A stretch of DNA of 64,000 bases from Candidatus Petromonas tenebris (GTDB lineage Bacteria > Bacillota > Clostridia > Peptostreptococcales > Caminicellaceae): assembly GCA_014236755.1 (NCBI GenBank), contig JACCKY010000012.1:1-64000 (forward strand), given 5' to 3'. A program made the translations under genes and the position numbers. Positions within the stretch are counted from its first letter, which is position 1. Every line of letters starts with the position of its first letter. Under the pieces are notes generated by a model, which worked only from the letters and a program-made list of their open reading frames with translations, was not told the origin of the DNA and did no database searches. Positions 834 to 53,575 of the stretch are shown in pieces.

Positions 834-2662
834 AGTATAGCAGAATTACTAAGAGGTCCTTATAAAAAGGAACAGTACGGTGATGTGATACTGCCTATGG
901 CCGTACTCAGGAGGTTTGACAGCGTTCTTGCAGCCACTAAGCAACAAGTATTAGAACGGTATGAAATGTTAAAAAAATCAGGGCTCCAAAACATGGACCA
1001 TGTTTTAAACAGGATTTCAAAGCAGGAATTTAATAATACAAGTAAATATGACTTTGAAAAGTTGCTGGCTGACCCAGATAATATCGCAAACAATTTAAGG
1101 AATTATATAAGGGGTACATATTTGAAGAACTAATTAGAAGGTTTTCTGAATACGGAGAAGCGGGAGACCACTATACCCCTCGTAAAGTTATCAGGCTTAT
1201 GGTGGATATCCTCCTTAACGAAGATAATGAGGAATTAACGCAACCAGGGCTTGTTGTAACTGTATACGACTGCTGTGCGGGAACGGGAGGCATGCTTTCA
1301 GTTACAGAACAATACCTGAAAGAATTAAACCCTGGGATAGATGTTGAATTATTTGGCCAGGAATTAAACCCACAGTCTTTTAGTATCTGCAAATCCGACA
1401 TGCTTATAAGAGGGCAGAATGTAGACAACATCATTTTGGGGGACAGTTTTACCCAGGATGGACATAGAGGGAGAACCTTTAGATACATGCTTACCAATCC
1501 CCCTTTTGGTGTAGAATGGAAAAAAAGCACAAAAGTTTATCAAAGATGAACATGAAAAGGAGGGTTTTGATGGTAGGTTTGGCGCAGGGCTTCCAAGAAT
1601 ATCCGATGGCTCCCTTTTATTTTTGCAGCACTTGATATCCAAAATGAAACAGGACGAAAAAGGCAGCCGTATCGCTATTATCTTTAATGGCTCACCATTG
1701 TTTACGGGGGATGCAGGCTCAGGAGAATCGGAAATCAGACGCTGGATAATAGAAAACGATATGTTCGAGGGGATTATTGCACTGCCTGACCAGTTATTCT
1801 ACAATACAGGTATTTCTACTTATATCTGGATAGTAACCAATCGTAAGAATAGTGACCCAATGAAGGGGCCTGTAAGGACAGGGAAAATACAGTTGGTCAA
1901 CGCAGTAGACTTCTATCAGAAAATGAGGAAAAGCCTTGGAAACAAGAGAAATGAAATCACTGAAGAACAAATAAAAGAAATTATGAGGATATATGGTGAG
2001 TTTAAGGAGAACGAATACTGCAAGATTTTTGATAATGAAGATTTCGGATATCAGAAGATAGTTGTAGAGAGGCCTTTAAGGCTTAATTTCCAGGTAACTG
2101 AAGAGAGGATTAATAATCTATACAATGAAAGAGCCTTTAAGAAACTTGCTGAAACTAGAAAAAAGGTGCAGCATGATTAAAGGAAATAGGGGAAGGCAAG
2201 AAACTTCAACAGCAAATAATAGATGTCTTAAAGACAATGGATTCTACTATTCTGTATAAAAACAGGGATGATTTTACAAAAGTATTCAAGAAGGCTTTTA
2301 AAAATATTAATATTAAATTGAATAGTTCTTTGTTAAAGGCTATTCTCTCTGCGTTGTCCGAGAAGGATGAAACATCAGATATTTGTGTGGATAGTAAGGG
2401 CAATTCAGAACCAGACCCAGATTTGAGGGATACTGAAAATGTATCTTTGAAAGAGGATATCCATGTATACTTTGAACGGGAAGTAAAACCCCATGTGCCC
2501 GATGCCTGGATAGATGAAAGTAAGACTAAAATTGGATACGAAATACCTTTCACAAGACATTTTTATAAATACCAGTCCCTAAGGCCTTCTGAAGAGATTA
2601 TGAAGGAAATTAAAGAACTGGAGCAGAGCATTTTGGAGAAATTGAAGAAGGTGATGGGGGGA
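834..2662 (+). pseudogene. hsdM: Type I restriction-modification methyltransferase, degraded
   Basis: HsdM is the adenine-specific DNA methyltransferase subunit of type I restriction systems. Family landmarks appear in order but in alternating frames: the N-terminal helical domain (IAELLRGPYKKEQYG, 837-900), the AdoMet motif CAGTGGM (near 1280), the catalytic NPPFG (near 1498), the PDQLFYNTGISTYIW block (near 1790) and a C-terminal DAWID segment (near 2505). The start codon is missing, with stops just before 834. Around 1115 the reading jumps from NLRNYI to GYIFEELIRRFSE, so about 50 family residues are deleted. Further shifts lie near 1540, in a run of seven A, and near 2180. Because a deletion accompanies the shifts, this is real decay and not only homopolymer error. 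Confidence 0.85.
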
Positions 2663-2843
2663 ATGAGTAAGTTTAGGAGGTATGAAAGATATAAGGATTC
2701 AGGGATTGAGTGGATAGGGGAGATACCAGAGCCTTGGACGGTTAAGAGAATTAAGTATATTTCAAGTATGATATCTAAAGGTACTACTCCATCTACTATT
2801 GGACAACAAATATTAGATAGTGGGAAAATACGGATTTAAAGAG
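2663..2843 (+). pseudogene. hsdS: Type I restriction specificity subunit, N-terminal stub
   Basis: An ATG at 2663 opens the typical HsdS beginning: RYKDSGIEWIGEIPEPW, then KGTTPSTIGQQILDSGKIR, the first part of target recognition domain 1. Only about 58 residues of a roughly 400-residue protein remain. The upstream hsdM tail reads in-frame into this start, giving an apparent HsdM-HsdS fusion that is probably a by-product of frameshifts. After DSGKIR the sequence switches to hsdR in another frame, so most of hsdS and of hsdR has been removed in one deletion. Confidence 0.8.
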
Positions 2844-3374
2844 TCAGAACTTCCAGAACGGTTTGCCACCGATAAATTGAATAAGTTTGCTCATATATAC
2901 TTTAAGCAAAAAGATAAAAAGACTTCTAAAGATAGGGCAATGCTAAACCACTTTATAGATGTGGCCGTAGAAAGGTTTAAGAAACTGGATAAACAGCGGA
3001 AGCAGGATTTTAGCAGCCAGAGTATGAAATACGTAAGGCTTTATTCCTTCATCCTTCAAATAACGCCTTTTGAAGATGTTGAACTCCATAAGTTGTATGT
3101 ATATTTAACATATCTGCTTAAAAAACTGCCAAAGGAAAAAGGCTCTACTGTCCACCTGGCAGATGAGATTGCTTTAGAGTATTATGCTACCAAAAAGACA
3201 TTTGATGATTTTCGGCTTGCTTTTGAAAAAGTCTTTATCAATAAAGTGATTGACAGGATGGACCAGAATCAGACCTTCTTTACACGCATTTTGGATGATG
3301 AACAGTTCAAAAATGCATTGATGGAATTTATGCTGGTTGAAACCTATGAAAAATTAAATAACATGACAATTTGA
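2820..3374 (+). pseudogene. hsdR: Type I restriction endonuclease, C-terminal fragment
   Basis: The frame gives 184 residues matching the C-terminal helical region of HsdR: KFAHIYFKQKDK, a MLNHFIDVAVERFKKL helix, YVRLYSFILQITPF and the LHKLYVYLTYLLKKLP stretch. The nuclease and DEAD-box motor domains, normally about 800 residues upstream, are absent. The GTG at 2820 is an artefact of the fusion with hsdS and not a native start. No restriction activity is expected from this locus. Confidence 0.8.
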
Positions 3375-3397
3375 TGACAAAGTAAAGGAGAAAATGT

Positions 3398-3916
3398 ATG
3401 AGTAAATGTGAAAGATGTGGAACAATTTCTAAAAGTAATGGCATGGTAATAACAACCACAGAGGAAGGGAAACCATCAGAAACAATCTGCGGTGACTGTT
3501 ATAATGCTTATATGGCAGAGATGCTTGAGGTTGAAGATTATAAAGATTTTGAACCAAGAGCAATTTTTACTGATTGTGAAGGAATAGAACATTGTTTTGA
3601 GATAAGGAAGAAAATTTATCCAACGGGAATTTGCTGGGAAGCCAATGAATTTTTTTAAGAGGATAAAATAGGATATTCCTTTGAGGTACACCAGGATTTT
3701 GATACTGACTCAAATGAGGCAATAGAAAGGCTTTATAGAAAGATAAGAAAGGGTTTATCACGAAAGTTTGTAAAAAGAGAAGTATTTCAGGGACAAGAGT
3801 TTTTATCTTTTAAAGATAATATAATAGAAGGGCGTATTGAATGGGATTACAGGTATGACGATAGAACTCCCAAATTTATTATAGATGGACAGGTTGTAGG
3901 CAAGGGGAGAAATTGA
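3398..3916 (+). pseudogene. DUF7713-like zinc-ribbon protein with in-frame stop
   Basis: A good ribosome binding site (AAAGGAG) precedes ATG 3398. The first 86 residues hold two Cys pairs (CERCG and CGDCY), then HCFEIRKKIYPTGICWEA. A TAA at 3656-3658 interrupts the frame, but the same frame continues without further stops for 85 codons. That part contains GYSFEVHQDFDTD, IRKGLSRKF and GRIEWDYRYD, which complete the DUF7713-type domain. The break therefore looks like a single GAA-to-TAA change. The protein also ends earlier than relatives, after IDGQVVGKG, so a second lesion is likely. Function of the family is unknown to me. Confidence 0.6.
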
Positions 3917-3952
3917 AGATAATTTACGGATGATGTAGGTTCAGTAACTCAA

Positions 3953-4129
3953 GTGATAGTATTTGGCGGGGGAAATGCTGCGTCAAATGAACCATTCTTT
4001 AATCAGATAACCATTAATATGGTTGAATGTATATTAAAACTTGCAATGGAATTATATTTGTTTATTGGAAGTAAAGGAATCGTAACAATTGCTAGAAGAA
4101 TTTATGATAGTGGTATGCATGACCAATAA
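3953..4129 (+). CDS. Possible 58-codon ORF or gene remnant
   Basis: A frame open from about 3925 to a TAA at 4127 encodes VIVFGGGNAASNEPFFNQIT and a hydrophobic Leu-rich tail. The GTG at 3953 is the first plausible start, but it has no clear ribosome binding site. I do not recognise the sequence. It may be a leftover of a longer gene between the DUF7713-like gene and the next zinc-ribbon gene. Confidence 0.2.
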   Translation: MIVFGGGNAASNEPFFNQITINMVECILKLAMELYLFIGSKGIVTIARRIYDSGMHDQ

Positions 4130-4174
4130 TAATGTTAGCAGTTGTTTAAAATATTAATGAAAGGGATGAAATAA

Positions 4175-4753
4175 TTGGCAAAATGTACACTTTGTAACAC
4201 GAAAAAATCAAAGAGATTATGTCCTGTCATAAATGAATATATCTGTCCAGAATGCTGTGGCAGTAAAAGAGGTGTAGAGATTAACTGTGCACCAGAATGC
4301 AGTTTTTATGTACAATGTAAACGCAGGGAAAATGAAAAAGCCATCGGCAAATTAGTTAAAGAATCATTTAATGATGAATATAATGACTTGTTCAAGGATG
4401 AAAGAGTGGTTAATGTAGCAGGGCCGTTTGAATTGTATATATTTGAGAACTATTATAATGACATTAGAGTGAAAGATAATAATATCTATCAGTGCCTATT
4501 GAAAATGTACTATACCCTTGATGGGCAAGGTGATATCTACACTTTTGATGAATTTGAAACAGAGTTATTTAATAAATTTAAAGAAGTTGTTAAGCAGGAA
4601 AACACGCCTGTTGAACTACAAAAGACTATTATACTAAGATTGATGAAGTCAATCGAGCAGGTAACAGGCGGCATTTTTGGAAACAGGAATTACATGGAGA
4701 TGCTGCGTGGACAGTTCACCCATACAGGTAGAATGGGTGGAATGTTTTTGTAG
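4175..4753 (+). CDS. N-terminal zinc-ribbon protein, function unknown
   Basis: The TTG start at 4175 follows AAAGGGA by a normal distance and puts the metal-binding motif at the very N-terminus: CTLCNTKKSKRLC then CPECCGSKRG, with more Cys at CAPECSFYVQC (residues 3 to 50). Eight or more Cys in 50 residues imply zinc binding. The rest (60-192) is mixed and acidic, with no motif I know, ending in a Gly/Met-rich tail (GRMGGMFL). Related uncharacterised proteins with a CPxCC ribbon occur in clostridia. The gene is intact, unlike most neighbours. No function is proposed. Confidence 0.65.
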   Translation: MAKCTLCNTKKSKRLCPVINEYICPECCGSKRGVEINCAPECSFYVQCKRRENEKAIGKLVKESFNDEYNDLFKDERVVNVAGPFELYIFENYYNDIRVKDNNIYQCLLKMYYTLDGQGDIYTFDEFETELFNKFKEVVKQENTPVELQKTIILRLMKSIEQVTGGIFGNRNYMEMLRGQFTHTGRMGGMFL

Positions 4754-5012
4754 TGTTATGACAAATATCTATATAATAAATGACCTATATTAAGAAACAA
4801 GAATCATGATTCTGGATGAAGGTTATATTATAAAGAGACTATCCTTTATTAATTTTATTTAGGCTTGGCGTTTTAATATATACTTCTAATCAGTGGCAAG
4901 GTTTTAAAAATTGCAGGCAGTGCAATATTAATGATGCTGGTAAGCCTTTTTATTTACCATGCTAAACAGGAAGGCTTGCTTTGCTTGGATGTTGTAGAGG
5001 TAAAAGCAGAAG

Positions 5013-5147
5013 TTGTATATAAGCATAATATGTGTTAAAATGTAAGCATAAAAGTAAGGTATACGGATGGAGAGCATATTCTCTTCTTACGGCCAGATTA
5101 GATTCTGGAATGACATAAGGGAGAATATGCTCTTTTTGTATTTATAG
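5013..5147 (+). promoter_or_regulatory. Promoter and nested-hairpin leader, copy 1
   Basis: TTGTAT (5013-5018) and TAAAAT (5036-5041) are spaced 17 bases apart. The leader then forms a perfect 12-bp stem, GAGCATATTCTC (from 5072) with GAGAATATGCTC (to 5132), followed by T5. A smaller CCAGA/TCTGG hairpin (5093-5107) lies inside the loop. Hairpin plus U-tract is an intrinsic terminator between the promoter and the gene at 5169. The same arrangement recurs at 6553 (copy 2), before a different gene. The upstream stretch 4754-5012 shows nothing else I can name. Confidence 0.6.
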
Positions 5148-5168
5148 AGTTTTTATGGAGGTTGGGCG

Positions 5169-5909
5169 ATGGTAGATGATAGGATGCTCACGATTCAGGC
5201 ATTTATTCAAAAAATTACAAATGATTTCAAGAAAGCATTCCCACAGGTGAGCATAGAAAAAGATTCAATCTGTTTCGGTTCTGGGGTGATACATGTAGAA
5301 ATTCCAATCGGCAGCATGTATAGAGAATATCAAATAACCGATTACCCTAAGACAAAAGAATCATATATAAAAATTGGCAATGAAATACTTAACCAATACA
5401 AGTTCAAAGTGGATTATTCTAATGTCTATCCGATATTGAAACACCGTGATTTTGATAAAAATGCAAAAGTTTAGTTTTATAAGAAGAGAGCCTTTGCAGA
5501 CGTGGATGTGCTGTATGTTACAGATATGGGAGAAACTTTCCGTTTCTTCACTACAGATGATGATGTAGATTTTAGTGTGCTTGAACGAAAGGCTATGGAA
5601 AATATAAACAAAATGACTGCTGTTCTTGTGTCTTTAGATAAGGGATTGCAGGTATTTACGCTAAGGCATACAACGGATTTTGCAAGTTCACTGTTTTTAT
5701 CATCCTCAATAAGTAGACAGATAAGGGAGAAGGTGGGAGAAGATATATTATTTGCAATTCCCAGTACATCATCTATCCTTGTTGCAAAGTACAATTATTA
5801 CAATGAGAGACTGCTTGAACATCTTATAAAATGTGATTCGGACCCTAACAAGGTTTCAAACTCAGTATATAGACGTAAAAATGGAATGCATTATATGAAA
5901 GTATGTTAA
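5169..5909 (+). pseudogene. DUF1444-like protein with in-frame TAG
   Basis: ATG 5169 follows GGAGG. The first 101 residues (IQAFIQKITNDFKKAFPQ, then YREYQITDYPKTKESY, then YPILKHRDF) resemble the N-terminal half of DUF1444/YtpQ proteins. TAG at 5472-5474 stops the frame, but the same frame continues uninterrupted to 5907 with FADVDVLYVTDMGETFRFF and a long helical tail. One codon change, probably from GAG, therefore splits an otherwise intact gene of about 246 codons. The second half alone has no good start or ribosome binding site. The family function is unknown. It sits behind leader copy 1. Confidence 0.5.
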
Positions 5910-6075
5910 GGAGTAAGAGAAAATAAAGAATAAGATAAATATGGACGATTAGTGTTATTGATACTATCATGGATACATTTTTGATTTATTTTTAATTAAA
6001 ACTTTGAGTTAAGGTATTTATACTAAATAAACAATAAAAAACATAATAAAATTTTATGGAAGGAGCGATGAATTT

Positions 6076-6255
6076 ATGAATAAGGTATTAATAGAGTGTG
6101 ATGAACTTATTGATGAATATGAATTAAATGAGGAAAAGATTTTAAAACAGTTACAATCAATGAAAATAGAAAAAGGAGCAGAGGATTTTGTCATTGTATA
6201 CAATAATGACTCACATTACACACTGATTGGTGAAATTAAGGGTAATCAGTTCTAA
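6076..6255 (+). CDS. Small acidic protein, 59 residues, unknown
   Basis: ATG 6076 has GGAAGGAG about 9 to 14 bases upstream; an earlier ATG at 6068 stops after three codons. The product is acidic in its first half (ECDELIDEYELNEEK) and then predicts a beta segment (DFVIVYNNDSHYTLIGEI). There is no signal or membrane segment. I do not recognise it. The clear ribosome binding site and single intact frame argue that it is translated. It ends convergently with the small ORF on the other strand. Confidence 0.5.
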   Translation: MNKVLIECDELIDEYELNEEKILKQLQSMKIEKGAEDFVIVYNNDSHYTLIGEIKGNQF

Positions 6256-6403
6256 CCAATATTGAAAAAGCCATTGCGTTTAAAAAAAGGATTAATATCT
6301 CAATTGCTTCGGTTATTTCACCTGAAGCCTTAGTTTCTATTATACTTTTTACAGCCTGTTTAAGGTAATTTAGTTCTATTCCAAAAACTTCCAAATTTAT
6401 CAC
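6236..6403 (-). CDS. Possible small ORF, 55 residues, unknown
   Basis: Read on the minus strand, AAGGAG lies 8 bases before a GTG at 6403, and the frame is open to TAA at 6236. It gives INLEVFGIELNYLKQAVKSI followed by a hydrophobic helix near the end (AIEILILFLNAMAFSI). The ribosome binding site is the main support; codon content is neutral. It overlaps the tail of the 59-residue gene by about 20 bases, tail to tail. It could also be the 5' end of a gene whose remainder was lost. The flanking stretch 6404-6552 shows nothing further. Confidence 0.3.
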   Translation of the reverse strand: MINLEVFGIELNYLKQAVKSIIETKASGEITEAIEILILFLNAMAFSILVRTDYP

Positions 6404-6552
6404 TTCAACCACTCCTTCACGAAAGTTTGAAACATTATAGGGATAGGCTTATGGAAAGTCAAATTAATAGAGGTAAAAGTTATAAATAGGCTAAGAAGGA
6501 TATATAGGGTTAAGATGAGTTGGGTAAATTAGTTGTAAAAGTTATAATATGA

Positions 6553-6672
6553 TTGTTTTCGTTTTTTATATGCGCTACAATAGCGTTAGCGACACAGACG
6601 GAGAGCATATTCTCTTTATACAGCCAGATTTATGCTGGCAGTAATTAAGGAGAATGTGCTTTTTATTTTTTG
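6553..6672 (+). promoter_or_regulatory. Promoter and nested-hairpin leader, copy 2
   Basis: TTGTTT (6553-6558) and TACAAT (6576-6581) are again spaced 17 bases apart. GAGCATATTCTC (from 6603) pairs with GAGAATGTGCT (6649-6660), then a T-rich run follows. The internal hairpin is GCCAG/CTGGC (6622-6638). Compared with copy 1, one A on the 3' arm is G, which keeps pairing as a U-G wobble, and the inner hairpin differs while remaining paired. Conserved shape with changed bases suggests selection on RNA structure. The downstream gene is the Rpn-like pseudogene at 6719. Confidence 0.6.
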
Positions 6673-6718
6673 CAAAAAAAAATTGAGACGATAAAATTCA
6701 AGGTTAGAGGTGATGGAT

Positions 6719-7583
6719 ATGAGAGCAACTTTTCAGGAAGAGAGTTATATCGCAAAATGTTTTAATAGGACATTTCAAGGAGTGTCATTTAAGGGGATTG
6801 GGTTAGAGTTACCGAGGATAAAGGAAATAGTGGAAGTAGAAAGAATAGAGAATTATAAAAAACCACTTCTAATGTTTTTGCTTGAAGATGATTCAGTATT
6901 TCATATTGAAATTATGAATGATGAAATAAAGCCTGACGTCCAGAGTATGCTGACCTATGATATGAGTATAGTATTGAAATATGGAATGCAAGTAAAGGTT
7001 GTTATTCTGAATTTTGGAAGCAGGCAAAATGGAGAAGAGTTTTGGTTCAGTACATTATGAGGCTCAGATGCTAGATTTAGCAGGTATTGATGGAGAAAAA
7101 ATATATGATGAAATCAGCCAGAAAATTTGTTCAGGCTGTCCACTTGATGGGAGAGATAAACTGAGCCTGGTATTTCTTCCATTTATGAAGCATTCATTGC
7201 CCTTCGAAGAAGCACTATCAAAGGTTTTATTACTTATAGAAGCATTAAATGAAGAGGAAGAACGATTGGTTTACTTGACGGTAATAACCGAAATCGCATC
7301 AAGATTTACTGGGAATCAAGGGCTTGAGGCTTTAAAGGAATGCCTGATGGATAGTGAGGTAGGGCTAAGGATTAAGGAGGTAGGGGTCAAGGAGGGAATG
7401 CAAAATTCGTTACTAACAATTCTTTTACATAAATTTGATTCCTTACCTGACAATCTGTACTATGCTATTACAAATCAGCAAAATGAGAATATTTTGATGG
7501 AGTGGCTTGGGAAGGTTTCAGGTATCAATGGCATAGACAAACTTGAAAAAATGGTGTTTAGTAGAAATAGAATAAAGGAATAA
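6719..7583 (+). pseudogene. Rpn-like PD-(D/E)XK nuclease, frameshifted
   Basis: The protein reads from ATG 6719 (AGAGG upstream) to about 7050, and then in another frame to 7583. The first half carries MFLLEDDSVFHIEIMND and MLTYDMSIVLKYGMQVK, the pattern of Rpn recombination-promoting nuclease or transposase-like proteins. The ExQ pair of the family reads EIM here. The second half has LDLAGIDGEKIYDEI, a helical region, and a VKEGMQNSLLTILLHKF tail like DUF4351. Combined length of about 288 codons fits the family. The shift lies near GAGTTTTGG at 7035. An overlapping ATG at 7014 could let the second half be made separately, which I consider unlikely. Confidence 0.55.
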
Positions 7584-8041: not shown

Positions 8042-8242
8042 ATGAAAAAGAGAATGAATATAATTTTTAACATGGTCATACCTACAGCGTTTGCATATAT
8101 AGTATTTTTTCTACTTTACAATATGTTTCAAGAAAAGTTTTTTGAATACAGGTGGATGGGGGTAATACCGTTTCTAATAGTTACAGGATTTATTATTACA
8201 GAAAACAGAAAAGAATGGAAAACAATAAATCAGCAGGGATAA
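8042..8242 (+). CDS. Small membrane protein, two predicted helices
   Basis: ATG 8042 follows GGAAGGGAG by a normal distance. The 66 residues start KKRMNIIF and contain two hydrophobic segments, about residues 8-27 (MVIPTAFAYIVFFLLY) and 39-54 (MGVIPFLIVTGFII), with a charged end (ENRKEWK). This predicts a two-helix inner-membrane protein. Integral small proteins of this size, paired with a tiny one-helix ORF, are common in accessory DNA, but I do not recognise a family. The next small ORF starts 41 bases later. Confidence 0.5.
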   Translation: MKKRMNIIFNMVIPTAFAYIVFFLLYNMFQEKFFEYRWMGVIPFLIVTGFIITENRKEWKTINQQG

Positions 8243-8572: not shown

Positions 8573-9103
8573 TTAATAATCAGTTAAAGCATTAATGCTC
8601 TTTTCCAAATCCTCATGTCTTACCTTGAGGTAAATGGCACTGCTTTCTATACTTTCATGTCCTAAGAGATACTGTACGGTATTGATATCAGCATTGGGTG
8701 TGTTAAGAACTTGAATTGCAAAGTGATGCCTGAACATATGAGGGTATATTTTAATATTGGTGTCATTTTCCCAGCACTTTAATATCTTGAAGATTCCAGA
8801 ACGGGTAAAGGGCTACTTTCTTTCGCTAATCAGAAGGTATTCAGAATTTATAAATGCCTTATTCCTAACTTCCATATATGGAGTAATTGCCTTTCTTGCA
8901 TCTAAATGAAGGGGAATATCCCTTTCTTTTTGATTCTTACCTATAACTCTTAGATTTCCAGACCGTTCATTTATGGCTATGTCATCAAGGCGGATATTTA
9001 TAAGTTCACTTACCCTGACTCCAGTTTTAGATAATAATTCAAAAACCACTATCCATAATTCCTTATGACTTTTATGAACATATCGCTTATCTGAAGGAGT
9101 CAT
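8573..9103 (-). pseudogene. Tyrosine recombinase catalytic domain, broken
   Basis: Reading leftward from 9103, the frame gives the catalytic half of a phage/transposon integrase. It has the Arg-I box (TGVRVSELINI), the beta-hairpin Lys (VIGKNQKERDIPL), HMFRHHFA with the His-x-x-Arg pair, LLGHES and the Tyr nucleophile region (SSAIYLKV). TAG at 8813-8815 interrupts it between ISERK and PFTRSGIFK, yet the frame is otherwise open to TAA at 8573. The N-terminal core-binding domain of about 100 to 150 residues is absent, because the sequence passes directly into acoB on the other strand. It is probably an inactive remnant of the element that brought or rearranged this block. Confidence 0.75.
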
Positions 9104-9887
9104 AATAGGATGTGCTGTTGGGTCAGCTGCTACAGGATTAAGACCAGTGGCAGAGCTTATGTTTATAGATTTCCTAACAGTTGGAATGGACCAACTTGTG
9201 AACCAAGCGGCAAAAATGAGATATATGTTTGGTGGAAAAATTACTCTTCCTATGGTAGTTAGATTACCGGCTGGTGCAGGTGTTCAAGCAGCAGCACAGC
9301 ATTCCCAATCTCTAGAAGCATGGCTTACTCATGTGCCTGGACTTAAAGTTGTATATCCATCAACGCCGCAAGATGCCCTTGGACTTATGTTAAGTGCTAT
9401 AGAAGATGATAATCCTGTAATGTTTATAGAGCATAAATTGCTATATTCAGTTACAGGTGAAGTTGAAGATGATGTAAAGCCAATTCCTTTAGGATTGGCA
9501 GATATTAAAAGAGAAGGTAGTGATGTTACTGTAATAGCTACTGGGAAAATGGTTCATGATGCATTAAAAGCTGCTGAATTGCTTTCGAAAGAGGGCATAG
9601 AGGTTGAAGTAATAGATCCAAGGTCTTTATATCCTCTTGATAAAGAAACAATATTTAAATCTGTACAAAAGACCAATAAAGTAGTTATAGTTACTGAAGA
9701 AAACAAGCGAGGTGGTTATGGCGGAGAAATTTCTGCGCTGATTTCAGAAAATTATTTTGATTATCTTGATGCACCTATAATAAGATTAGGTGCTCTAGAT
9801 ACTCCAATACCATTTTCTCCCAAACTTGAAAGCTATGTAATTCCTAATGAAACAGATATAGTTAATGCTGTTAAGAAAATGATATAA
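9102..9887 (+). pseudogene. acoB: Acetoin dehydrogenase E1 beta subunit, 5'-truncated
   Basis: From about 9102 the plus strand reads IIGCAVGSAATGLRPVAEL and then the rest of a TPP-dependent E1 beta subunit: MFIDFLTVGMDQLVNQAAK, PAGAGVQAAAQHSQSLEAW, the C-terminal transketolase domain (VTVIATGKMVHDALKA) and IDPRSLYPLD. About 55 to 60 N-terminal residues are missing, including the EDVG region that supplies a thiamine-diphosphate contact. The partner acoA, normally directly upstream, is absent. GTG 9147 is an in-frame start without a ribosome binding site. The stump is open to its normal stop and lies 53 bases before acoX. It cannot form the alpha2-beta2 E1 enzyme. Confidence 0.85.
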
Positions 9888-9940
9888 AAATCTTGAAAGA
9901 GGTAGCATAGCTATCTCTTTCTTAAAGGAGAATATATTAA

Positions 9941-10936
9941 ATGGCTACAATAGGTATTATTGCTAATCCTGCATCAGGCAAGGATATCAGAAGGCTTGTG
10001 TCCCATGCTACTGTAGTTGATAATAATGAAAAAGTAAATATTGTGGAGAGAGTAATACTGGCTGCACAAAAATGTGGTGTAACTAAGGTATATATCATGC
10101 CAGATACTTATCAAATTGGGTATAAAGTTGAGGATAAATTAATCACTTCAAAGGAGTTAAAGGCTGAAATAGAAGTATTAGAAATAAAGATTACTGGAAG
10201 TCAGTTGGATACAACAATGGCATCAGAAATTATGGAGGAGAAAGGAGTAGGATGTATAGTTGCCCTTGGTGGAGATGGGACATGTAGAGCTGTAGCGAAA
10301 GGAATAGAAAACACACCATTAATTGGATTATCTACAGGAACTAATAATGTTTATCCAGAGCTGACTGAGGGCACGGTGGCTGGAATGGCAGCTGCAATAG
10401 CTGCATCAAAAAAATATAGTATACAAGACATTTGTAAAAAAGATAAGAGGATTGAGATATATAAGAATGAAAAACTTATTGATATTGCTTTGGTAGATGT
10501 AGTTTTATCAAAAAACATATTTGTAGGAGCTAAGGCCATATGGAATATTGAAGATATATTAAAAATAATAGTAACGAGAGGTCACCCTGCTAGTATAGGA
10601 TTCTCGTCCTTGGTTGGATGCAAAATGATTGTTAAGGAAGAGGATGATTTTGGTATTTGCATTGATCTGACAAAAGATAAATATAAAATCAAAGCTCCTA
10701 TAGCTGCTGGATTAGTAGAAAAAATAACGATAGGTGAACCTGAAATAATTGAAATGAATAAAGATTATGTATATATACCAGAAAACAAAGGAATAATCGC
10801 CTTAGATGGTGAAAGGGAGATAATTTTTAAAAAAGGAGATAAATTTATCTTTAAAATAACTAGAAATGGACCTCTCCATGTAAATATTGTAAAGACATTA
10901 GAAATAGCGCAGAAAGAAGGATTTTTTAATTATTAG
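9941..10936 (+). CDS. acoX: Acetoin catabolism protein X
   Basis: AcoX is found only in acetoin dehydrogenase operons and resembles ATP-NAD kinases; its reaction is not established. The protein has 331 residues. IANPASGKD is at 7-15, the kinase-type GGDGT at 110-114 (in CIVALGGDGTCRA) and STGTNNVYP at 131-139, the order expected for the NAD kinase/diacylglycerol kinase fold. ATG 9941 follows AAAGGAG. It sits between the acoB stump and acoC in the usual operon order. With acoA gone and acoB truncated, it is probably now a passenger, though its frame is intact. Confidence 0.85.
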   Translation: MATIGIIANPASGKDIRRLVSHATVVDNNEKVNIVERVILAAQKCGVTKVYIMPDTYQIGYKVEDKLITSKELKAEIEVLEIKITGSQLDTTMASEIMEEKGVGCIVALGGDGTCRAVAKGIENTPLIGLSTGTNNVYPELTEGTVAGMAAAIAASKKYSIQDICKKDKRIEIYKNEKLIDIALVDVVLSKNIFVGAKAIWNIEDILKIIVTRGHPASIGFSSLVGCKMIVKEEDDFGICIDLTKDKYKIKAPIAAGLVEKITIGEPEIIEMNKDYVYIPENKGIIALDGEREIIFKKGDKFIFKITRNGPLHVNIVKTLEIAQKEGFFNY

Positions 10937-10991
10937 AATTATTTATCCATAGTATTGAGTATAAAAATAGCAATTACAAGGAGGAATAGTA

Positions 10992-12290
10992 ATGGCGGAT
11001 GTAATTGTAATGCCTAAGCTTGGCCTTACCATGAAAGAAGGAAAAATAGCAAAGTGGCATAAAAATGAAGGAGATGAGGTTAATGAAGGAGAAACCTTGC
11101 TTGAGGTTGCAACAGATAAACTAACCAATGAAGTAGAAGCAAATAAAAGCGGTTTTATTAGAAAACTATTAGCCAAGGAAGGAGATGTAATTCCTTGTCT
11201 AGAGCCTATTGCCATTATAGGGAATAAAGATGAAGACATATCTTCCTTATTATCCCAATCAACAGTAAAAGCAGAGAAAGAGGATAGTGTTAAAACTTCT
11301 AGTAATAAACAAGAGGTAGAGAAAAAAACAAATCAATCGAAGAGAGTGAATGTTTCACCAATAGCAAAAAAACTAGCACAAGAAAAGGGAATTGATATTG
11401 CCGATGTTGTTGGAACTGGTCCACAGGGGAGAATAACGAAGAATGATGTTGAAAAATACTTGGAAGTTAAAGGTAAAGTAAAGACATCTCCAATGGCAGA
11501 GAAGGTTGCTAGTGAATTGAACGTTAAACTTTCAGATATTAATAAATATGGTAGAATAATGAAGCAGGATGTATTAGATTTTAACAAAAAGCGCAAACTA
11601 CTTGAAGCTGCTAACCCTATTGATGAAAGAGTTCCTATGACTGAAATGAGGAAAGTTATAGCCCGAAGGATGTCACAAAGTTGGGAAATTTCACCTGCCG
11701 TTACCTATGATATCAAAGTAGATATTACAAATCTAAGACGATTAAAGAATGAACTAAAAGACATTTATAAGGTAACATATACTGATCTTTTAGTTAAGAT
11801 TCTTTCAAAATCTCTTCTAGATTTCCCCTTGTTAAATTGTTCAATAGATGGAGAAGAGTTGATATATAGAAATTATGCTAATATTGGTGTAGCCGTTGCA
11901 ATAGATAATGGGCTTGTAGTACCTGTAGTAAAATATGCAAATGTTAAAGGTTTAAAAGAAATTTCTTCTGAGATTAAAGAACTTGTTTTTAAAGCGAAAA
12001 ATAACGAACTTTCTACAGATGATTTAACTGAAGGAACTTTTACTATCACTAACCTAGGAATGTATGGAATAGATTCCTTCTCACCAATCATCAATCAACC
12101 TGAAGTAGCAATACTTGGAGTTAGTACAATAGTAGAAACACCAGTACTACAAAATGGAAATATTATAAATAAACCATTTATGAAATTATCTCTAACAGCA
12201 GACCATAGAGCAGTGGATGGAGCAGTTGCCGCTCAGTTCCTTTATAAAATCAAACAATATATCGAGAAGCCTGAAATGTTAATACTATAG
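10992..12290 (+). CDS. acoC: Acetoin dehydrogenase E2 (dihydrolipoyl acetyltransferase)
   Basis: E2 moves the acetyl group from lipoate to CoA and forms the core of the complex. In order: a lipoyl domain (1-78) with the lipoylated Lys at 43 in EVATDKLTNEVEA; a Lys/Glu/Ser linker; two peripheral-subunit-binding domains (about 119-157, with VGTGPQGRITKNDV, and 165-198); and the catalytic domain from about 211, with TADHRAVDG at 402-410 (His405, Asp409). Two binding domains are more than most E2 proteins have. The ribosome binding site is AAGGAGG. It lies 55 bases after acoX and 17 before acoL. A 2-oxo acid E2 for another complex is possible, but the neighbours favour acetoin. Confidence 0.9.
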   Translation: MADVIVMPKLGLTMKEGKIAKWHKNEGDEVNEGETLLEVATDKLTNEVEANKSGFIRKLLAKEGDVIPCLEPIAIIGNKDEDISSLLSQSTVKAEKEDSVKTSSNKQEVEKKTNQSKRVNVSPIAKKLAQEKGIDIADVVGTGPQGRITKNDVEKYLEVKGKVKTSPMAEKVASELNVKLSDINKYGRIMKQDVLDFNKKRKLLEAANPIDERVPMTEMRKVIARRMSQSWEISPAVTYDIKVDITNLRRLKNELKDIYKVTYTDLLVKILSKSLLDFPLLNCSIDGEELIYRNYANIGVAVAIDNGLVVPVVKYANVKGLKEISSEIKELVFKAKNNELSTDDLTEGTFTITNLGMYGIDSFSPIINQPEVAILGVSTIVETPVLQNGNIINKPFMKLSLTADHRAVDGAVAAQFLYKIKQYIEKPEMLIL

Positions 12291-12307
12291 GAAAGGAGCC
12301 TGGATAT

Positions 12308-13699
12308 ATGAAAGTAGTTGTTCTCGGTGGTGGACCAGGAGGATATGTATGTGCAATTAGAGCGGCACAACTTGGAGCAGATGTTACGGTTATAGAAAAG
12401 GAACGTATGGGAGGAACATGCCTAAATGTCGGATGTATTCCAACAAAGGTACTTCTTCATACTACCGAAATATATAAGACAATTAAGGAAGAATCTAAAG
12501 AGCTTGGTATAAAAGTAGATAATATTGATATAGATTGGACTGCACTTCAAAAGAGAAAAGAATCAATAGTCAATCAATTAATAGGCGGTGTAGAAACTCT
12601 CTTAAAATCTAATAATATTACAAAAATAAGTGGACAAGGAAAGTTTATAAGTGATAAAGAGATTAGAGTTACCTTATCTAATGGGAAAAGGGAAATTATT
12701 AAATTTGATAAAGCAGTAATTGCTACCGGATCAGAACCTACAATAATTCCTTTAGAAGGTGTTGATTTAGATGGAGTTATTACAAGTAATGAAGCTTTAT
12801 CTTTAAAGGAAATACCAGAAAGCATGTGTATAATAGGAGGAGGAGTAATTGGTAGCGAATTTGCATGCGTGTATTCTTCCTTAGGTACAAATGTTACAAT
12901 TATTGAAATGCTCCCGGAAATTTTGACTACAATGGATGAGGACATTGTTAACATTTTAAAAAATCAACTAATTCAATCAGGTGTAGATATATATACAAAA
13001 ACAAAAGTTGATAGTATTCAACAATATAAAGATAAATTAGTTGTCAGTACTAGTTCTCAAGGGAGTAAACAATCATTTGTAGTAGAAAAAGTTTTATTGG
13101 CAGCTGGAAGAAGACCAGCTACGAAAAATTTAGGACTTGAGGATATTGGAATAAAAGTTGATAGAGGTGCTATTGTAGTTGACAGGAGAACCATGGAAAC
13201 CAGTGTAAAAAATATATATGCTATTGGTGATTGTAATGGAGGAACTTTGCTTGCCCACGTTGCTTCAGCTGAAGGTATAGTTGCAGCAGAAAATATTATG
13301 GGTAAGGTATCTAAAATTAAATTAAATCCCACACCTTATGCAGTATATACTAAACCAGAATTAGCAGCTGTAGGCATTACAGAAAAGGAAGCAAGAAAAC
13401 AGGGATATGAAGTTCGAGTTGGAAAGTTTCCTTTATATGCCAATGGGAAATCATTAATCATGGGTGAGTTAAATGGAATTGTAAAGTTCGTAGTGGATGC
13501 TAAGACTGATGAAATACTTGGTATACACATGGCAGGGCCAAGAGCAACGGATTTAATTGCAGAAGGAGCATTAGCTCTCAGATTAGAAGCTACAGTTGAA
13601 GAAATTATTACAACTATTCATGCTCATCCAACTGTAGGAGAAGCATTCCATGAAGCAGCCCACGCGGTTCACCGTTCAGCGATACATTTACCAAGATAA
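12308..13699 (+). CDS. acoL: Dihydrolipoamide dehydrogenase (E3)
   Basis: This flavoprotein reoxidises dihydrolipoamide on E2, passing electrons to NAD+. The 463-residue protein has the FAD-binding GGGPGG at 7-12, the redox disulfide in GGTCLNVGCIPTK (Cys38, Cys43), the NAD Rossmann motif IGGGVIGSEFA (about 177-187), a second FAD motif AIGDCNGG (about 305-312) and the C-terminal HAHPTVGEAFHE, which carries the catalytic His/Glu pair. ATG 12308 has AAAGGAG upstream. It is the last gene before a strong terminator. Because it is intact, it could still serve another lipoyl complex such as glycine cleavage. Confidence 0.9.
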   Translation: MKVVVLGGGPGGYVCAIRAAQLGADVTVIEKERMGGTCLNVGCIPTKVLLHTTEIYKTIKEESKELGIKVDNIDIDWTALQKRKESIVNQLIGGVETLLKSNNITKISGQGKFISDKEIRVTLSNGKREIIKFDKAVIATGSEPTIIPLEGVDLDGVITSNEALSLKEIPESMCIIGGGVIGSEFACVYSSLGTNVTIIEMLPEILTTMDEDIVNILKNQLIQSGVDIYTKTKVDSIQQYKDKLVVSTSSQGSKQSFVVEKVLLAAGRRPATKNLGLEDIGIKVDRGAIVVDRRTMETSVKNIYAIGDCNGGTLLAHVASAEGIVAAENIMGKVSKIKLNPTPYAVYTKPELAAVGITEKEARKQGYEVRVGKFPLYANGKSLIMGELNGIVKFVVDAKTDEILGIHMAGPRATDLIAEGALALRLEATVEEIITTIHAHPTVGEAFHEAAHAVHRSAIHLPR

Positions 13700-13712
13700 A
13701 TAATGTAATTTC

Positions 13713-13780
13713 AAAATAGTATTTAGGACTTTGGCGAAAAAATTTTTGTCGTTAAAGTCCTAAAATACTATTGGGTTTTT
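13713..13780 (+). terminator. Strong intrinsic terminator after acoL
   Basis: A long stem pairs AATAGTATTTAGGACTTT (from 13714) with AAAGTCCTAAAATACTATT (to 13772), with a loop around 13735-13752, and is followed by GGGTTTTT. It closes the acoX-acoC-acoL transcript. The following 224 bases (13781-14004) are AT-rich with a small GATTGTA/TACAATC hairpin near 13959 and no gene. Confidence 0.85.
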
Positions 13781-14004
13781 ATGAGAAAGTACATTAAAAG
13801 AAAATAATTATTTGAATAAATTTATTTATTTGAATTTTCATAAAAAACATATTAAAGACCTTTCTATGTCGATATTTTTATAGTAATATATAAATAATAT
13901 TGATATAGTGGAGGTAAATAAAAGGCCTAACGGTCAATAATATAGCAATTAAGCTGATTGTAGAATTTTACAATCGCCTACTATATTTATAAGAGGGTGA
14001 AAAA

Positions 14005-14988
14005 ATGAAATATATAAAAACTGATTGGGATATACCATATTATAATTTTGCACTTGAAGAATATTTGATGAATGAAGCACCGGAAGATAGTTATATTTTC
14101 TTTTATATACATAAACCATCTATAATTGTTGGGAAGCATCAGAATACTATAGAAGAAATTAATAAAGAATTTGTTGAAGAAAATGGTATTATTGTAGCTA
14201 GAAGATTATCAGGTGGTGGAGCAGTATATCATGATGAAGGAAATCTGAATTTCTCATTTGTGCAAAAGGCACAAAAACAAGATTTCAATAATTTTGAAAA
14301 ATTTACACGACCAATAATAAATGCATTGAAAGAACTGGGAGTAGAAGCTGAACTTTCAGGTAGAAATGATATATTAGTTAACGGTAAAAAAATATCAGGA
14401 AACGCACAATACTATAAAAAGGGGAGAATATTAAGTCATGGTACTTTACTATTTAACGCTGATATGACTAATTTATCTAAAGCATTAAAAGTTAAAGACT
14501 TAAAAATTAAGTCGAAAGGAATTAAGTCAGTTAGAAGTAGGGTTGCAAATATTAAAGATTATATGGGAAAGGATATGTCGATATTTGAATTGAAAAATTA
14601 CATTTTAAATTATATTTCTGACAATGTTGATATTGACGAATATGTTTTGAATGAAAGCGAATTAAAAAAAATTATTGAAGTTGCAAATAATAAATTTAGC
14701 ACATGGGATTGGATTTGGGGCAATTCTCCAGAATATGAAATTCAGAAAATTAACAAATTTCCGTGTGGCTTAATTGATGTACGATTAAATATTAAAAATG
14801 GTAAAATTAAAGACTGCAAAATATATGGAGATTTTTTTACAAAGAGAAATATAGAAGAATTAGAAGAATTTTTGTGTGATAAAACTTATGAAAAGGACAG
14901 TATTAAAAACGATTTAAAAAATATTGACTTATCAGATTATTTTCATGGGCTTGACTTAGAAAAATTTGCAGAGTTTTTAACTGTTTGA
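14005..14988 (+). CDS. lplA: Lipoate-protein ligase
   Basis: The enzyme attaches scavenged lipoate, via lipoyl-AMP, to E2-type domains such as that of AcoC. The 327-residue protein starts MKYIKTDWDIPYYNFALEEY. RRLSGGGAVYHD is at 66-77 and NFSF at 82-85; NDILVNGKKISGNAQ at 121-135 contains the adenylate-binding Lys. A C-terminal accessory domain with WDWIWG and a cysteine-containing CGLIDVRL stretch completes the full-length LplA form. GAGGGTG precedes the ATG. Placement next to an acetoin dehydrogenase operon is typical. It is transcribed separately, behind the terminator at 13713. Confidence 0.88.
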   Translation: MKYIKTDWDIPYYNFALEEYLMNEAPEDSYIFFYIHKPSIIVGKHQNTIEEINKEFVEENGIIVARRLSGGGAVYHDEGNLNFSFVQKAQKQDFNNFEKFTRPIINALKELGVEAELSGRNDILVNGKKISGNAQYYKKGRILSHGTLLFNADMTNLSKALKVKDLKIKSKGIKSVRSRVANIKDYMGKDMSIFELKNYILNYISDNVDIDEYVLNESELKKIIEVANNKFSTWDWIWGNSPEYEIQKINKFPCGLIDVRLNIKNGKIKDCKIYGDFFTKRNIEELEEFLCDKTYEKDSIKNDLKNIDLSDYFHGLDLEKFAEFLTV

Positions 14989-53413: not shown

Positions 53414-53575
53414 TTGACACAATGCTATGAAAATGATATTATAAACGTACGCAATATTAATAATAAATTCATTGAAAGGAAATCACATGACTGGCGGAAG
53501 TGGAATTGACCACATGGAGTGTGATTTTAAAATATGCCGACCGCCTGGGCTCCAAGTCCGGGCGGTCTGTTTTTT
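53414..53575 (+). promoter_or_regulatory. ZTP (pfl motif) riboswitch with promoter
   Basis: TTGACA (53414-53419) and TATTAT (53437-53442) are 17 bases apart. The aptamer spans about 53485-53550: ATGACTGGCGGAAGTGGA, then GACCACATGGAG, a variable linker, and GCCGACCGCCTGGGC. Those are the conserved pieces of the class sensing ZTP/ZMP, a signal of low 10-formyl-tetrahydrofolate. The 3' aptamer strand GACCGCC (53539-53545) also pairs with GGCGGTC (53561-53567), followed by TGTTTTTT, so ligand binding would prevent termination. The gene switched on is pyruvate formate-lyase, which yields formate for the folate pool. Confidence 0.88.

Follow-up and report, generated by a model that had tools for sequence, protein, structure and literature searches.

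Two near-identical leaders precede two unrelated genes

What does an RNA do when it stands, almost unchanged, in front of two unrelated genes of the same locus? The locus lies on contig JACCKY010000012.1 of Candidatus Petromonas tenebris (Clostridia), of which we analyzed the first 64,000 nucleotides, here referred to as the window. The initial annotation had described two near-identical promoter-hairpin leaders before different genes, and both copies were indeed found, at 5070-5137 and 6601-6671, with the 16-mer GGAGAGCATATTCTCT exact at 5069-5084 and 6600-6615. With up to three mismatches, five sites were obtained in the window versus 0.52 expected, a number reached in 0 of 100 shuffles; two of these sites are simply the two arms of copy 1 on the opposite strand. 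Across the whole source genome, a search with up to two mismatches returned the two exact sites and one two-mismatch site on another contig (one site in the backward-sequence control), and the two window copies were the only leaders found there.

Both leaders contain the annotated inner CCAG/CTGG hairpin and a U tract, but the enclosing stem is 16 bp long instead of the 10 to 12 bp originally read: 5070-5085 pairs with 5119-5134, and 6601-6616 pairs with 6648-6663. The fold energy of each leader beat all 200 dinucleotide shuffles (z of -4.3 and -5.9). The prediction that an arm change between the copies yields a wobble was borne out, as two such changes do so. The 17-base-spaced promoters are present by inspection and conserved in relatives, but a consensus scan of the window listed neither of them, and promoter-like sites occurred at chance level (9 versus 9.7 expected). 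The spacing pattern TTG-N20-TANAAT is kept in 18 of 22 A-type copies and 1 of 9 B-type copies (subtypes defined below; a count made without a shuffled control), and two copies carry a second, upstream match. The leader promoters are thus supported by conservation in relatives (19/31 copies) and not by the consensus scan. All features are listed in Table 1.

Table 1. Features of the two leaders and the surrounding cassette in the window
Feature	Position	Strand	Basis
Promoter of leader 1: TTGTAT, 17 nt, TAAAAT	5013..5041	+	Sequence; kept in relatives; consensus scan not above chance
Leader 1, 5' mini-hairpin GAGA-GCAUAU-UCUC, candidate antiterminator	5070..5083	+	Subtype covariation; in silico nascent folding
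Leader 1, terminator 5' arm	5070..5085	+	Folding, covariation
Leader 1, inner hairpin CCAG/CTGG	5093..5108	+	Folding, covariation
Leader 1, terminator 3' arm and U tract	5119..5137	+	Sequence, folding, covariation
DUF1444-like gene, one in-frame stop in the window	5184..5891	+	Pfam DUF1444 in intact relatives
Small conserved ORF, shortened (about 88 aa in relatives)	6076..6252	+	Comparison with relatives
Divergent ORF, shortened (about 98 aa in relatives), candidate trans factor	6239..6412	-	Comparison; relative predicted all-helical
Promoter of divergent ORF, TTGACT-17-TATAAT	6462-6434	-	Sequence
Promoter of leader 2: TTGTTT, 17 nt, TACAAT	6553..6581	+	Sequence; kept in relatives
Leader 2, 5' mini-hairpin GAGA-GCAUAU-UCUC	6601..6614	+	Subtype covariation; in silico nascent folding
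Leader 2, terminator 5' arm	6601..6616	+	Folding, covariation
Leader 2, inner hairpin GCCAG/CTGGC	6623..6639	+	Folding
Leader 2, terminator 3' arm and U tract	6648..6671	+	Sequence, folding, covariation
Rpn-like PD-(D/E)XK gene, frameshifted in the window	6710..7583	+	Comparison with relatives; fold of relative
Conserved 66-aa membrane protein, closes the cassette	8042..8239	+	Comparison with relatives

The leaders belong to an RNA family outside Rfam

A covariance model built from the two window copies (R1) matched 2 of 393 genomes of the same order, namely, the window's own and G083, in which two copies are separated by 1.45 kb and the genes are ordered as in the window. When genome_contigs (84,980 species) was scanned with a pattern, 17 stretches were obtained, 8 of them with the full element, from Clostridium homopropionicum, Geosporobacter, Herbinix, Haloimpatiens, Lutispora, Tepidanaerobacter, and two metagenome-assembled genomes (L029 and L043); the others (L031, L032, L033, L035, L036, L038, L039, L041, and L044) were chance pattern matches without a 3' arm. 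The next model (R2) found a match in all nine element-bearing genomes, that is, the eight from the scan and the window's own, with extra copies in some. On the class, it matched 11 of 391 genomes, of which 9 were accepted; G475 and G678 (E value of 0.008) were rejected since the family core was absent by eye and the DUF1444-subfamily gene was missing. Other weak R2 matches (E values of 0.01 to 0.45), which were opposite-strand echoes, chance by eye, or uninspected, were excluded, and a weak match in G006 (E value of 0.02) was left out of the copy set. With a third model (R3), matches were obtained in 3 of the 14 genomes searched in one family and in 4 of 348 searched across the phylum, which were G974, G1044, the window's own, and G852, where the match is a relic. 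The three R3 matches of G974 comprise a good copy, a degenerate one, and a chance match. The spread of the leader is therefore patchy, as for a mobile island.

Altogether, 31 copies from Clostridia-like Bacillota were aligned as members of a structured-RNA family, representing 29 distinct sequences, as two rows duplicate others after trimming. The covariance-model search proposed earlier thus returned more copies, and their stems covary. Outside these counts stand three copies found after the alignment (L110, L111, and L113), three identical to copies in use (L082, L086, and L092), and three that are relics or doubtful (L112, L096, and L114). L112 is a relic leader after hsdR. In G613, a lone degenerate match (L096 1501-1583, minus strand; R3 E value of 2e-5) lies distant from both cassettes of that genome. 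L114, considered as a third subtype, was rejected as a chance match just after an ORF that we take to be SpoVS-like; at 1501-1577 (minus strand), it forms a terminator of the same shape, with a 5' arm dyad, and its sequence is unrelated to the leaders.

Three subtypes were distinguished. Types A1 (n = 9) and B (n = 9) precede DUF1444-like genes, and type A2 (n = 13) goes with the Rpn-like gene. The 5' arm reads GAGA-GCAYAT-TCTC in type A and GGAG-GCAYAT-CTCC in type B, so that the loop is constant while the stem changes. Four copies are exceptions: the second loop letter differs in A1_G541 and B_Herb103k, the stem differs in A1_Cbac114, and B_G479 has an extra base, which gives a loop of seven.

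The initial annotation could match this attenuator-like motif to no known riboswitch class, and this was confirmed. At gathering scores, Rfam placed no family at the window leaders or in the loci of four relatives, and below these scores only irrelevant matches far under the cut-offs appeared. A description of the motif was absent among the literature matches listed, and of five motif letter-words searched in the literature, one was present, in an unrelated Drosophila context. As far as Rfam and the searches made here go, the RNA family is undescribed. The suggestion that the cassette is phage derived was not upheld, since no real copy was recovered from viral contigs, phages, or plasmids. A loose leader pattern matched 16 stretches of viral contigs, several of which share one repeated sequence, and by eye none had CCAG followed by CTGG; three tighter patterns gave zero matches there. 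Distant blastn searches gave zero matches in phages and only one weak match in plasmids (E value of 0.9), inside a WD-repeat gene.

The leaders are tied to two genes of one cassette

The leader had been thought to be conserved separately from the genes behind it. This was not supported, as every one of the 31 copies belongs to the same gene cassette or to what remains of it, and type I restriction genes are often adjacent. In 18/18 A1 and B copies, a DUF1444-subfamily gene follows 15 to 327 nt downstream. Conversely, 14 of the 15 DUF1444-subfamily genes found in 391 genomes carry the leader, the exception (L128) being the most diverged full-length member. Among 17 genomes chosen because they hold the element, the leader precedes all 9 near full-length cassette Rpn genes, while among 11 weaker Rpn matches (77 bits or less) it occurs only at the G541 remnant. 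Nine of the 13 A2 copies stand directly before the Rpn-like gene, the window's frameshifted gene included. As for the others, only an Rpn remnant is left in G541, the gene is split by rearrangement in G732 and missing in C. homopropionicum, and no Rpn match was reported in the Haloimpatiens stretch, which ends early. In G732 (L101 5629-6559), leader 2 and the two Rpn-like halves lie in different orientations, as after an inversion. Contig C18 of G479 carries three diverged, leaderless Rpn-like matches in tandem (898-5609).

The cassette begins with hsdR, cargo genes, leader 1, the DUF1444 gene, an ORF of 88 aa, and a divergent ORF of 98 aa; it continues, sometimes after three genes (XRE, ImmA-like, and PIN-like), with leader 2, the Rpn gene, and a 66-aa membrane protein. 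Some cassettes lack single genes. hsdR was seen in 7 of 18 stretches, and that of the window is a remnant. The cargo between hsdR and leader 1 includes DUF7685, a DNA-deoxyinosine glycosylase, and a gene that presumably encodes an ADP-ribosylglycohydrolase; the island is a mosaic, with cargo that differs between constant landmarks. The XRE, ImmA-like, and PIN-like genes (the last named by eye) match PADLOC PDC-M69A, B, and C, which are the best match only for the ImmA-like gene. This module sits between the divergent ORF and leader 2 in L040 (5772-7523), L030, L043, L045, L100, L104, and L107.

The gene assignments of the initial annotation fared unequally. Pfam DUF1444 (PF07285) was matched by two intact relatives at 34.9 and 38 bits (E values of 1.6e-8 and 1.8e-9; gathering cut-off of 23.8), whereas the interrupted pieces of the window's gene alone gave no Pfam match. 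YtpQ, a studied DUF1444 protein, is described as a coproporphyrinogen oxidase, mainly of Bacillaceae (PMC10965808). The Rpn-like assignment has no Pfam match and only a low-confidence fold match. In a Foldseek search with the model of a relative (pLDDT 65), PD-(D/E)XK enzymes, namely, a Pyrococcus repair endonuclease, McrBC, and EndoMS, appeared at probabilities of 0.77 to 0.82 and E values of 0.095 to 0.23, below several unrelated entries, and nothing reached E < 0.001. According to PMC10327210, Rpn proteins of Escherichia coli are toxic and combat phages, which would be a reason for keeping the Rpn gene of the cassette off. A relative of the divergent ORF gave a confident all-helical model (pLDDT 93), for which Foldseek and VIA-align returned only common four-helix arrangements, with Foldseek E values never below 0.001; the best structural alignment (Z of 8.1 to a crystal structure titled ZETA_2) is within the chance range of such bundles. 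Of 16 loci, 15 have a near-consensus promoter before this ORF, scored as the best site within 90 nt with 10 or more of the 12 letters matching and without a control.

In the window, the in-frame stop of the DUF1444-like gene, the frameshift of the Rpn-like gene, and the hsdR remnant suggest that its leaders may be late remnants of a once functional cassette. Type I restriction remnants, named partly by eye, cover 885-3374, with HsdR in two pieces only. A tyrosine-recombinase-like fragment adjoins the island at 8813-9103 (minus strand), and a similar ORF lies past the cassette in Lutispora (L042 6190-7080), both named by eye.

The leader RNA has the conserved structure of an intrinsic terminator

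That each leader RNA forms an intrinsic terminator with a 16-bp stem, placed between the promoter and its gene, is well supported by the alignment. Among the 29 distinct sequences, 98.0% of cells in the terminator helix and inner pairs can pair, and six pairs of the helix show changes on both sides (37 cells versus 10.5 in shuffled alignments). In the first 14 type-A copies alone, covariation was not above shuffles (268 of 500 as high), the variation of the outer stem being almost all wobble. Over the 12 stem pairs outside the U tract, we counted 54 G-U cells versus 4 A-C cells. If the DNA or the other strand mattered, these counts would be alike or reversed, so the imbalance indicates selection on the plus-strand RNA and not on DNA. 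The two arms differ in their tolerance of change: in type A (21 rows), 6 departures from the majority fall in the 5' arm versus 37 in the 3' arm, and in type B (8 rows), 4 versus 14. The 3' arm thus follows the 5' arm, which therefore seems to have a second job. In 33 of 34 pairs, which are not independent of each other, leader identity exceeded the four-fold-site identity of the downstream gene; the comparison covered 12 intact genes (4 DUF1444 and 8 Rpn). When full-length RNAs were folded in silico, the terminator won in 31/31 copies.

The 5' arm can form a small hairpin with a conserved loop

The second job of the 5' arm may be a small hairpin of its own, which has the conserved loop GCAYAU and would exclude the terminator. 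Its stem covaries between subtypes (GAGA/UCUC versus GGAG/CUCC), and changes on both sides were seen at 3 of 4 pairs, in 22 cells versus 6.3 in shuffled alignments; the count of such pairs itself was no higher than in shuffles (3 versus 2.8). With the partner slid by two columns, 94.0% of cells still pair versus 99.1% in register. In silico, the mini-hairpin had a probability above 0.5 in 28 of 31 short nascent RNAs and in 23 of 31 longer ones; just before synthesis of the 3' arm, it was below 0.5 in 8 of 31 copies, one of which, B_G479, was scored at a shifted position.

A dyad in the 5' arm is weak evidence when taken alone, since a self-pairing helix of 5 arises in 9% of cases when the terminator pairs are permuted, and the chance match L114 has such a dyad as well. 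Most of the covariation comes down to a single two-state difference that many rows share by descent. Because the DUF1444 gene of the window groups with B-type genes (support of 81/84), the A label must change twice on the DUF1444 tree, although only one change is forced by strongly supported branches; repeated switching between A and B is therefore probable. Since the mini-hairpin is much less stable than the terminator, a switch would need a factor.

Proposed mechanism and alternatives

Our preferred reading, held with moderate confidence, is that the leader is a cis-acting transcription attenuator common to two promoters of a defence-island cassette and works with an antiterminator hairpin and a trans factor. 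The RNA probably switches transcription of both genes off until some signal prevents it. Judging from the promoters, transcription would start about 10 nt before the hairpin. By default, the 5' and 3' arms would pair into a strong intrinsic terminator and an RNA of roughly 80 to 90 nt would be released, which would leave the DUF1444-like and Rpn-like genes nearly silent. During synthesis, the 5' arm would first fold on itself into a hairpin of 4 to 5 bp with the nearly constant GCAYAU loop, and the terminator could form only if the 3' arm invaded through this loop. The loop would thus be both a handle for a trans factor and the landing place of the 3' arm, and a factor gripping it would block termination and turn both genes on together. 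What the analysis shows directly is the conserved terminator structure, the strand on which it acts, its constant position before the two genes, the conserved loop, and a covarying stem; termination in the cell, the switch, and the trans factor are inferred, and the modeled 98-aa helical protein divergent from leader 2 is the best candidate for this factor. A bolder version, which we consider rather improbable, makes the leader an infection sensor: two strong terminators would silence a toxic nuclease module, and either phage-altered transcription or release of the divergent ORF, as an RNA-binding protein, would cause read-through at both and arm the defence.

The leader could also be a fixed damper: with no switch involved, an ordinary terminator close to the promoter would hold down the output of two costly genes and insulate them. 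The strong terminator fold of every copy, the ease with which a 5' arm dyad arises, and the presence in the cassette of an Rpn-like gene, whose E. coli namesakes are reported to be toxins used against phages (PMC10327210), agree with it. However, a plain terminator would need neither an almost invariant 5' arm and loop with a covarying mini-hairpin nor near-identical sequence before two unrelated genes, and we regard this explanation as unlikely. Distinctly improbable, in our judgment, is an RNA antitoxin of the type III or AbiF kind, in which the terminated RNA would bind and silence the downstream protein and also limit its transcription. The order of parts resembles that given for RCd22-abiF (promoter, RNA of about 100 nt, terminator, toxin gene; PMC12373285), and one of the two downstream proteins is Rpn-like, but the RNA has no module beyond the terminator hairpin and no repeats, it serves two unrelated proteins, and at the leaders Rfam reported neither the abiF motif nor another family at gathering scores.

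The mosaic island and the palindromic leader would suit a DNA element such as an operator, a MITE-like insert, or a folded recombination site. The strand-specific excess of G-U over A-C cells points to RNA instead, the position before the genes is fixed, and in the 5' dyad the half-sites change around a conserved centre, where a dimer operator would show the opposite; this makes a DNA element very unlikely. Also very unlikely is a small RNA that is produced from two places, acts in trans, and pairs with distant targets through its conserved 5' arm. It would explain why the leader has its own promoter and terminator and a conserved 5' arm, yet that arm is buried in a 16-bp stem, and the copies track two downstream genes. 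A leader peptide was dropped because the alignments showed no conserved start codon by eye.

Comparison with known systems

One of the closest parallels to the proposed attenuator is clostridial. In Clostridioides difficile, RCd22 (Rfam abiF motif RF03085) is described as a short structured RNA with its own promoter that ends at a Rho-independent terminator before the defence gene abiF, and the logic is alike in that premature termination keeps the gene low; deletion of RCd22 raised abiF 17-fold (PMC12373285). In that description, RCd22 has two abiF hairpins ahead of a separate terminator, binds the AbiF protein, and fronts abiF, whereas here the whole RNA is the terminator hairpin and fronts two unrelated genes. 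An antitoxin motif upstream of a separate terminator, the mark of type III toxin-antitoxin and abiF RNAs, was thus absent. The type III RNAs (ToxIN) likewise combine an RNA, a terminator, and a toxin gene, parts reported to be cotranscribed (PMC12373285); in contrast to them, the leader has no tandem repeats, and the proteins downstream are not known endoribonucleases.

In the ANTAR-target leaders (EutV, NasR, and AmiR), a terminator has as its competitor a mini-hairpin whose six-base loop is held by a protein (PMC3369931). As described there, these RNAs have two hexaloop hairpins with A at the first and G at the fourth position, whereas our leader has one hexaloop, GCAYAU, with G first and Y fourth; two A1/G4 hairpins were not found, the inner loops of the copies vary in size, and an ANTAR target was dropped because the loop letters misfit. 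By the features compared, the leader is a member of neither RCd22-abiF nor the ANTAR class. The RAT of BglG/SacY, as portrayed in the same source, is also a protein-held RNA hairpin that overlaps a terminator, but it is an element of 29 to 30 nt versus about 14 nt for the GCAYAU hairpin; the two are compared here by description and length.

What is new is a cis-regulatory RNA family outside Rfam that is tied to a cassette of mobile defence islands in Clostridia-like bacteria. Its existence suggests that transcription termination can serve to keep toxic defence genes off, with one RNA design reused before two unrelated genes, and it offers the GCAYAU loop as an exact testable element together with a candidate regulator. 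If the signal were infection, this would explain how the cassette stays quiet until needed, and the leader would be a dedicated antitermination switch for anti-phage genes.

Two further features of the window lie outside the cassette. An acetoin/2-oxoacid dehydrogenase-like cluster with a lipoate ligase, named by eye, occupies 9147-14988, and a ZMP/ZTP riboswitch (RF01750, 65 bits) was found at 53477-53557 on the plus strand.
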